Source: Thermus arciformis | GTDB lineage: Bacteria; Deinococcota; Deinococci; Deinococcales; Thermaceae | Assembly: GCF_900102145.1 (NCBI RefSeq) | Contig: NZ_FNBC01000004.1 | Span: forward strand, 1 to 64,000 | Direction: 5' to 3' | DNA: 64,000 nucleotides | Shown here: positions 45,519 to 48,064 of the stretch, piece after piece | How the letters are laid out: each line of letters opens with the position of its first letter | How positions within the stretch are numbered: the stretch's first letter is position 1 | Made by a program: the position numbers and the translations under genes | The notes under the pieces: generated by a model | The model's database searches: none | Told to the model about the DNA's origin: nothing | The model's input: only the letters and a program-made list of their open reading frames with translations

Positions 45519-46280
45519 TCAGAACCTGGGCGGCCGCTTCTCAAAGAAGGCCCGGATCCCCTCCCTCAGGTCCCCGGTCTCCCGCACCCAGGCGTTGGCC
45601 AAGGCGGCGAGGCGGAAGCCGTCCTCGAGGCCCATCCCCGGTAAGGAGAGGAGGAGCTCCTTGGTGAGGCGGAGCGAGGTGGGGGCGTTCTTCGCCACCT
45701 CCTCCGCTAAGGCCTTCGCCTCCTCCAGGGCCTTTCCTAAAGGGGCGATGCGGTTTACCAGGCCCAGGGCCTTGGCTTCCTCTGCCCCCACGAGCCTTCC
45801 CGTGAGGAGGAGGTCCTTGGCGGCCTTCTCCCCCACGGCCCGCACCAGGATCACCGAAACCAAGGCGGCCACGAAGCCGATCTTCACCTCGGTGTAGCCG
45901 AGCCTTGCCTCCTCGTCCATGACCACCAGGTCGCAGGCGGTGGCAAGCCCCGCCCCCCCCGCCACCGCTGGCCCGTTCACCGCGGCCACCGTGGGCTTGG
46001 GGTAGGTGTAGAGGCGGTGGAAGAGGCGCATGAGGGAGAGGGAGTGGCGGTAGTTCTCCTCGGCGCCGAGCTCCGTGACCCTTTCCAAGAAGGCCAGGTC
46101 CGCCCCGGCGCTAAAGGCTTTCCCCCTTCCCGTGAGGACCACCGCCCGCACCCCGGGGTTGGCCTCGAGGCGGTCCAGGGCCTCCAGGAGGCCCGCCACC
46201 ATCTCGGGGGAGAGGGGGTTGCGGCGCTCGGGATCGTTCAGGAACACCGTGGCCACGAGACCTTCTTCCACCTGGACCAT
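45519..46280 (-). CDS. Enoyl-CoA hydratase/isomerase family protein
   Basis: 253 residues. Crotonase fold with AGADLAFLE oxyanion-hole strand and NGPAVAGGAGLATACDLVV; the two catalytic Glu of true hydratases should lie in GxxxxE (RLGYTEVKIGF) and at the AVAGGAGL helix. It is near-standard in length. Could take part in fatty-acid or phenylacetate degradation. Leaderless (TACAAT 6 nt upstream). Stops 14 nt before glnS, with glnS on the same strand downstream. Confidence 0.85.
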   Translation of the reverse strand: MVQVEEGLVATVFLNDPERRNPLSPEMVAGLLEALDRLEANPGVRAVVLTGRGKAFSAGADLAFLERVTELGAEENYRHSLSLMRLFHRLYTYPKPTVAAVNGPAVAGGAGLATACDLVVMDEEARLGYTEVKIGFVAALVSVILVRAVGEKAAKDLLLTGRLVGAEEAKALGLVNRIAPLGKALEEAKALAEEVAKNAPTSLRLTKELLLSLPGMGLEDGFRLAALANAWVRETGDLREGIRAFFEKRPPRF

Positions 46281-46286
46281 GCCCCC

Positions 46287-46292
46287 ATTGTA
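46287..46292 (-). promoter_or_regulatory. -10 box TACAAT for leaderless enoyl-CoA hydratase gene
   Basis: Minus-strand TACAAT, spacer GGGGGC, then ATG 46280. It overlaps the possible -35 of the divergent infC promoter. Confidence 0.5.
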
Positions 46293-46317
46293 GCCGAGGG
46301 GCTTTTCCTGCTACACT
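46288..46317 (+). promoter_or_regulatory. Possible infC operon promoter
   Basis: TTGTAG (46288-46293), 18-nt spacer, TACACT (46312-46317). The predicted leader of about 50 nt contains arms GCCCGC (46325-46330) and GCGGGC (46352-46357) just before the ribosome site GAGGAGGTG. Confidence 0.45.
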
Positions 46318-46372
46318 CCCCTTAGCCCGCAAAGGGTGCCGTAGAAGCCTAGCGGGCGAGGAGGTGGTGTAG

Positions 46373-46888
46373 ATAAAGGAGTACCTGACCAACGAACGCA
46401 TCCGTGCGAAACAGGTCCGCGTCATCGGCGCCGACGGGCAGCAGCTCGGCATCATGGACACCCGGGAGGCCCTGCGCCTGGCCCAGGAGCAGGACCTGGA
46501 CCTGGTCCTGGTGGGCCCCACCGCCGACCCCCCCGTGGCCCGCATCATGGACTACTCCAAGTGGCGCTACGAGCAGCAGGTGGCGGAGAAGGAGGCCCGG
46601 AAGAAGGCCAAGCGCACCGAGGTGAAGTCCATCAAGTTCCGGGTCAAGATTGACGAGCACGACTATCAGACCAAGCTGGGGCATATCAAGCGCTTCCTGG
46701 AGGAAGGCCACAAGGTCAAGGTGACCATCATGTTCCGGGGACGGGAGATGGCCCACCCCGAGCTGGGGGAGAGGCTTCTCCAGCGGGTGGCCGAGGACCT
46801 CAAGGGGATGGCGGTGGTGGAGATGAAGCCCGAGATCCTCGGCCGGGACATGAACATGCTCCTGGCCCCGGCCAAGGTGTCGGCCTAG
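46373..46888 (+). CDS. infC: Translation initiation factor IF-3, AUA start codon
   Basis: 171 residues, the known length for Thermus IF-3, only if it starts at the ATA codon 46373. An in-frame TAG stands directly before it (46370-46372), and the first ATG in frame (46454) would remove the conserved N-terminal strand [19 protein letters not shown] strong Shine-Dalgarno GGAGGTG (46360-46366) is 6 nt upstream of ATA. Such rare starts (AUU in E. coli) let IF-3 repress its own synthesis. Domains: N-domain to about 80, basic linker helix [15 protein letters not shown]-domain ending [10 protein letters not shown]. Binds the 30S subunit. Confidence 0.9.
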
Positions 46889-46914
46889 ACCCGGTAGCCT
46901 CCCTCTGGTATAGT
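46886..46914 (+). promoter_or_regulatory. Internal promoter of rpmI-rplT
   Basis: TAGACC (46886-46891, overlapping the infC stop), 17-nt spacer, TATAGT (46909-46914). Leader of about 57 nt before rpmI. Confidence 0.6.
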
Positions 46915-46919
46915 GGGAA

Positions 46920-46968
46920 GGCTTTGGGGAGCACCCAAGACCCCCGCTGGGGGCGCTTCCCAGGGCGG
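46920..46968 (+). promoter_or_regulatory. Possible L20-type autoregulatory leader of rpmI-rplT
   Basis: The leader holds TTGGG/CCCAA arms, a CCCCC-GCT-GGGGG hairpin (46941-46953) and a GGGGAGC...GCTTCCC alternative pairing. L20 leaders in other bacteria repress rpmI-rplT by such structures. The class cannot be assigned by eye. Confidence 0.3.
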
Positions 46969-46977
46969 AGGAGGCTT

Positions 46978-47175
46978 ATGCCGAAGATGAAGACCCACAA
47001 GGGCGCCAAGAAGCGGGTCAAGATCACCGCTTCGGGCAAGGTGGTGGCCATGAAGACGGGCAAGCGGCACCTGAACTGGCACAAGTCGGGGAAGGAGGTC
47101 CGCCAGAAGGGGCGGAAGTTCACCCTGGCCAAGCCGGAAGCGGAGCGGATCAAGCTCCTCCTGCCCTACGAGTGA
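46978..47175 (+). CDS. rpmI: 50S ribosomal protein L35
   Basis: 65 residues from ATG 46978 after [28 protein letters not shown] is the invariant L35 start, and the HLNWHKS and RRKR-like basic patches follow. It lies between infC and rplT, as in most bacteria. Confidence 0.95.
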
Positions 47176-47186
47176 GGAGGTAAGGG

Positions 47187-47543
47187 ATGCCGCGCGCCAA
47201 AACCGGATTCGTCCGCCGCAGGAAGCACAAGAAGATCCTGAAGCTGGCCAAGGGGTACTGGGGCCTGCGCTCCAAGAGCTTCCGCAAGGCCCGGGAGACC
47301 CTCTTCGCCGCCGGGAACTACGCCTACCGGGACCGCAAGCGGCGGAAGCGGGACTTCCGCAGGCTCTGGATCGTGCGCATCAACGCCGCTTGCCGCCAGC
47401 ATGGCATGAACTACTCCAGCTTCATCCACGGCCTGAAGCAGGCGGGGGTGGAGCTGGACCGCAAGGTCCTGGCCGACCTTGCGGTGCGGGAGCCCGAGGC
47501 CTTCGCCGAGCTGGTGGAGCGGGCCAAGGCGGCCCGGGCGTAA
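47187..47543 (+). CDS. rplT: 50S ribosomal protein L20
   Basis: 118 residues. [34 protein letters not shown] is the long basic helix that threads 23S rRNA, followed by the globular C-domain ([36 protein letters not shown]), which in other species binds its own mRNA leader. Ribosome site GAGGAGGTAAGG. Followed by a strong terminator. Confidence 0.95.
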
Positions 47544-47556
47544 GGCCCGAGGAAGG

Positions 47557-47587
47557 GGCGCCGGTCCATGGGCCCGGCGCCTTTTTT
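47557..47587 (+). terminator. Rho-independent terminator after rplT
   Basis: GGCGCCGG (47557-47564) and CCGGCGCC (47574-47581) flank a 9-nt loop and are followed by six T, ending 3 nt before the next start codon. Confidence 0.9.
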
Positions 47588-47590
47588 AAA

Positions 47591-48064
47591 ATGGACGGCA
47601 TCCCGCCACAGCTTTACGTCCTCCTGGTGGCGGCCCTCCCGGTGGTGGAGCTCCGGGGGGCCATTCCCCTCGGGGTGGCCCTGGGCCTTCCCCTCTGGGA
47701 GGCCTTTTCCCTGGCCCTCCTGGGCAACCTCCTGGTGGCCCCCCTGGCCCTTTGGCTCCTGCCCTGGGCGGTGGGGGTCGCCACCCGGGTGCCTGCCCTC
47801 GCCCGACTCTGGGAGGCCCTCGAGGCCCGGGTGCGCCTGAAGGGCGAGGAGCAGGTGCAGCGCCTGGGGGCCTTGGGCCTCTTCCTCTTCGTGGCCGTGC
47901 CCTTGCCGGGAACCGGGGCCTGGAGCGGGGCGGTGCTCGCCGTGGTCCTCGGGCTTAAACGGCGCTACGCCCTTCTCGCCATCTCCTTGGGGGTCTTGGC
48001 GGCGGGCCTTCTCGTCCTCCTCCTCACCGGAGGGGCGGTGGCGGGGCTAAACTACCTGCGATGA
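47591..48064 (+). CDS. Small multidrug-export-like membrane protein (COG2426)
   Basis: 157 residues from ATG 47591. Four hydrophobic segments. PPQLYVLLVAALPVVELRGAIPLGVALG and AVPLPGTGAWSGAVLAVVLGLKRR are hallmarks of the COG2426 family (SNARE-associated-like relatives, sometimes called small multidrug export proteins). Actual substrate unknown. The gene begins right after the T-tract of the rplT terminator, so its own transcript would have little or no leader. Overlaps the next gene by 4 nt (ATGA). Confidence 0.75.
   Translation: MDGIPPQLYVLLVAALPVVELRGAIPLGVALGLPLWEAFSLALLGNLLVAPLALWLLPWAVGVATRVPALARLWEALEARVRLKGEEQVQRLGALGLFLFVAVPLPGTGAWSGAVLAVVLGLKRRYALLAISLGVLAAGLLVLLLTGGAVAGLNYLR

Follow-up and report, generated by a model that had tools for sequence, protein, structure and literature searches.

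We found that infC of Thermus arciformis, the gene of translation initiation factor IF3, is very probably translated from an AUA codon at 46373 of the window (the whole 64,000-nucleotide stretch analyzed here), with an extended Shine-Dalgarno (SD) sequence ahead of it, imperfect pairing between the start codon and initiator tRNA, and negative feedback by IF3 on its own synthesis. The gene belongs to the known class of infC genes with starts other than AUG, of which it is a well-conserved member, and is ordinary in kind. The product matched the IF3 family (PF00707) above the cut-off, and its residues 1 to 171 aligned over the full length of the 171-aa T. thermophilus IF3 (5lmn chain X), whose N-terminus is the one used by the depositors and may itself rest on annotation. 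The sequence from 46360 to 46375 reads GGAGGTGGTGTAGATA, which in the infC frame gives GTG (46364-46366), GTG (46367-46369), TAG, and ATA, and from this ATA the frame stays open to the stop codon TAG at 46886-46888. The initial annotation had put the start at the ATA right after a TAG, behind a well-placed GGAGGTG, with the next ATG 27 codons downstream. All three statements held: the GGAGG (46360-46364) stands 8 nt from the ATA, the first in-frame ATG is at 46454, and the start codon itself was the same in every Thermus genome compared. The features of the region are collected in the table.

Features of the infC region of T. arciformis (positions in the window)
Feature	Position	Strand	Basis
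Probable infC promoter: -35-like TTGTAG (46288-46293) and -10-like TACACT (46312-46317), 18 nt apart	46288-46317	+	Read from sequence
Leader hairpin with a variable loop between the arms AGCCCGC (46324-46330) and GCGGGC (46352-46357)	46324-46357	+	Comparison of 27 Thermus
Extended Shine-Dalgarno AGGAGGTGGT	46359-46368	+	Pairs with 16S tail AUCACCUCCU over 10 contiguous bases (one G-U)
In-frame TAG abutting the infC start codon	46370-46372	+	TAG in 26/27 and TAA in 1/27 Thermus; not the rule in other genera
ATA start codon of infC	46373-46375	+	Reading frame, conservation, IF3 alignment
infC, translation initiation factor IF3, 171 aa	46373-46888	+	PF00707 match over cut-off; T. thermophilus IF3 alignment
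rpmI (ribosomal protein L35), downstream of infC	46978-47175	+	Name from conserved gene order
rplT (ribosomal protein L20), downstream of infC	47187-47543	+	Name from conserved gene order

Sequence conservation gives strong support to the AUA start. ATA was found in 27/27 Thermus genomes, which carry 19 distinct leader sequences, and in all of them GGAGG stood 8 nt ahead. In a sample of 103 infC genes from Deinococcota, the start was assigned to the codon that follows the SD at 6 to 10 nt and aligns with the N-terminus of IF3; it was ATA in 68, ATC in 20, ATT in 11, and GTA in 4, under a rule that took ATG, GTG, TTG, CTG, and ATH, and GTA only where none of these was present. Strains with ATG at this position, named beforehand as an observation that would speak against the AUA start, were looked for, and neither ATG nor GTG, TTG, or CTG was the assigned start of any of the 103 genes. 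In the genes of the window, ATA makes up 20 of 423 isoleucine codons and GC3 is ~90%, so that a drift from ATA to ATC would be expected if only the residue or codon class were of no importance. Avoidance of AUG, the rule for IF3 genes, thus now covers a broad sample of Deinococcota, with AUA as the commonest choice, and calls for caution in the automatic annotation of infC start codons.

Some infC genes departed from the common pattern. In four of four genomes from one family of the same order (f3; L182, L183, L185, and L186), the codon 8 nt behind the SD was GTA, in place of the ATA of their relatives. Initiation at GUA in E. coli recJ is reported to be IF3-sensitive (Haggerty and Lovett 1997, as referenced in PMC9845219). 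In another genus (f4g13; L112, L113, L116, L118, and L119) the start was ATT, followed by an N-terminal extension of ~10 basic and proline-rich residues, in most cases RRRGRVPPPTK, which precedes the conserved NEQIRV region. Finally, two Thermus assemblies, T. parvatiensis RL (L041) and Thermus sp. 2.9 (L056), had the infC match split in two with a change of frame between the pieces, L027/L030 (G016) and L028/L029 (G024); since IF3 is essential, these are probably sequencing errors.

The ribosome-binding site ahead of the AUA is strong and correctly spaced. The 3' end of 16S rRNA, read at two rRNA sites of the genome, is GGATCACCTCCTTTC, with the tail GGAUCACCUCCUUUCU, and all 10 bases of AGGAGGUGGU (46359-46368) paired with this tail, one of them as G-U. 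A variant, GGAGGUGAU, found in T. parvatiensis, T. caliditerrae, T. composti, and others, gives full pairing. With -19.1 kcal/mol, the infC duplex ranked second of the 49 window genes, and this against genes whose starts had been chosen to favor strong SDs. The GTG at 46364, which overlaps GGAGG, is held whole within the extended SD, as is most of the GTG at 46367, which begins 2 nt behind GGAGG; the second triplet was GTG in 21, ATG in 5, and GTC in 1 of the Thermus genomes. Because the two triplets are complementary to the 16S tail, they are more plausibly a stretch of the ribosome-binding site, and this agrees with S. aureus, in which extended SDs accompany non-canonical starts (PMC13009471).

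How such a start could serve infC is known from other bacteria. Initiation at codons outside the set AUG, GUG, and UUG is repressed by IF3, and infC is described as autoregulated by IF3 with an ATT start in E. coli and an ATC start in Streptomyces (PMC5472188), the E. coli case going back to Butler et al. 1986 and 1987, as cited in PMC5472188 and PMC13009471. In Xanthomonas, an ATT start of infC is backed by peptides (PMC5559785), and in S. aureus an AUA start was mapped by Ribo-Ret and autoregulation was proposed (PMC13009471). Thermus infC shares with its E. coli counterpart the IF3 product, a start codon of the AUU/AUC/AUA class, and the rpmI-rplT genes that follow, but it has AUA instead of AUU, a stop codon directly before it, and what appears to be its own promoter with a short hairpin leader. 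With S. aureus it has in common both the AUA and the extended SD, although the start was mapped experimentally there and is read from sequence in Thermus. The Streptomyces sigR gene also has an IF3-repressed, non-canonical start (PMC5472188), but gene and codon (GTC) are different, and it bears mainly on the GTA starts of family f3.

Since Thermus infC has the same parts as the E. coli and S. aureus systems, the same feedback would, by homology, be the best explanation for it, and fMet initiation at AUA and IF3-dependent repression would operate as in these other bacteria. The extended SD, with 10 pairs and 8 nt spacing, would draw the 30S subunit to the AUA, which would pair imperfectly with initiator tRNA, and IF3 would destabilize initiation complexes of this sort. 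Abundant IF3 would then lower IF3 synthesis and scarce IF3 would raise it. Of the earlier interpretation, the AUA start and autoregulation as the best reading by homology were kept, while its proposed start-stop element (see below) and its ranking of AUA as the most discriminated codon were not; in S. aureus reporters, AUA and AUU both gave ~10% of the AUG level in poor medium (PMC13009471), and the ranking was unconfirmed. As ribosome structures with IF3 exist for a thermophile (the 5lmn series), discrimination of the AUA start codon is testable with matched components.

An alternative is that infC is controlled mainly through its leader hairpin, which would act on mRNA stability, on access to the SD, or through a binding protein, and that the AUA merely keeps expression low. 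The motifs ATTGTA and TAnACT of the putative promoter were conserved in all 27 Thermus genomes, and TA[CGA]ACT was also found in related genera; the promoter was absent from the output of a consensus scan. Transcription would start near 46324, ~7 nt after the -10-like element, and the mRNA would therefore begin with AGCCCGC, the first arm of the leader hairpin. Both arms were invariant in 27/27 Thermus around a loop of 18 to 28 nt that varied in sequence and length, and the GCGGGC arm sits just before the SD. Ten genome sites carry the arm TTAGCCCGC. Only the one at infC has the partner arm and an SD behind it, and the arm was rejected as a general regulatory motif, none of the 9 other sites having both. 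At the same place next to the SD, Meiothermus has a hairpin of unrelated sequence with two compensated pairs, in which 93% of the pair cells were standard versus 34 to 50% for slid versions. However, covariation in the stem was found nowhere within Thermus, the folding energy of the leader was ordinary for this genome rather than exceptional, and a clear hairpin was weak or absent in some other genera, while the non-AUG start was present in all. With moderate evidence, these comparisons point to a conserved 5'-proximal hairpin before infC, but we consider it unlikely that this hairpin is the main point of control. It may protect the mRNA end, expose the SD, or take part in regulation. It might still be that infC control in the Thermaceae is a two-part device, in which a 5'-terminal hairpin abutting the extended SD is combined with an IF3-discriminated AUA, the stop codon of Thermus closes the only canonical-start bypass, and one family in the phylum now uses GUA for the same purpose; we put this forward tentatively, as a possibility with the balance against it.

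The initial annotation had further proposed that GTG-GTG-TAG is a start-stop element: ribosomes would both initiate and terminate there, and the element would compete with the AUA or feed it by re-initiation. A stop codon at the -1 position was indeed kept in 27/27 Thermus, the sole change being from stop to stop (TAG to TAA), TAG-ATA recurred at infC in L152 and L180, and such a stop preceded 0/48 of the other genes of the 64-kb window, to which the start-codon and -1-stop statistics apply and for which gene calls were approximate and favored the best SD. In T. parvatiensis and T. caliditerrae, the element reads GTG-ATG-TAG. Nevertheless, initiation on the GTG triplets is unlikely because they lie inside or against the SD; they are within the SD-anti-SD duplex, too near for the P site by the usual spacing rules. 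The second GTG is replaced by GTC in L026, and the -1 stop was missing in Meiothermus (0/18 with a stop) and in 34/35 genomes of family f5 (present in 1/35). As an upstream open reading frame of the start-stop or re-initiation type, the element failed both on the SD distance and on conservation, the second triplet varying and most other genera being without the closing stop. The proposal was left without support, and we regard it as highly improbable. Most likely, the in-frame UAG has a passive role: it would serve as a spacer and also block the synthesis of an N-terminally extended IF3 from GTG or ATG triplets within the SD. Four other genera (f1g3, f1g5, f4g13, and f4g14) likewise have an in-frame stop between the SD and the infC start, usually the TGA of GGAGGTGA.

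Least probable of all, and hardly to be credited, is translation from CTG/TTG codon 5 (46385) or ATG codon 28 (46454) with the ATA as mere upstream sequence: AAGGAG stands 3 nt before codon 5, which is the canonical start TTG in 5/27 Thermus (CTG 21, TTG 5, CTC 1), but L026 has CTC at this codon and L111 of the sister genus has AGA, residues are conserved in Thermus from codon 2 onward, initiation at codon 28 would remove conserved residues of the IF3 N-domain, and the spacing of the main SD suits the ATA only. It is conceivable that a shorter IF3 product is made from codon 5 in most Thermus species; its start would sit just 3 nt behind AAGGAG.

Less expected by-products of the analysis, besides the hairpin leader and the GTA family, came from the leader of rpmI. 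The genes downstream of infC are presumably rpmI and rplT, given the known conserved order infC-rpmI-rplT. An L20_leader (Rfam RF00558) before infC was rejected, there being no covariance-model match up to E=5, and the whole region from 46200 to 47600 gave no Rfam match at E<=5. The L20-interacting leader of B. subtilis (PMC6097659; Rfam L20_leader) belongs to the same infC-rpmI-rplT gene order; in Thermus, unlike there, no Rfam match was obtained, and a distinct conserved hairpin precedes rpmI, not infC. In the gap between infC and rpmI (46906-46977), a promoter-like TGGTATAGT (46906-46914) was found together with a hairpin conserved in Thermus, GGCTTTGGGGAGC-n4-CAAGACCC...GGGGGCGCTTCCCAGGGC, which has an invariant CAAG[AT]CC inner loop, shows compensatory changes in 4 pairs, and is without an Rfam match. 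This hairpin is a candidate autoregulatory leader of rpmI-rplT, of the L20 type and uncatalogued. Together with its own promoter-like sequence, we suggest, it would allow control of the ribosomal protein genes separately from that of infC.
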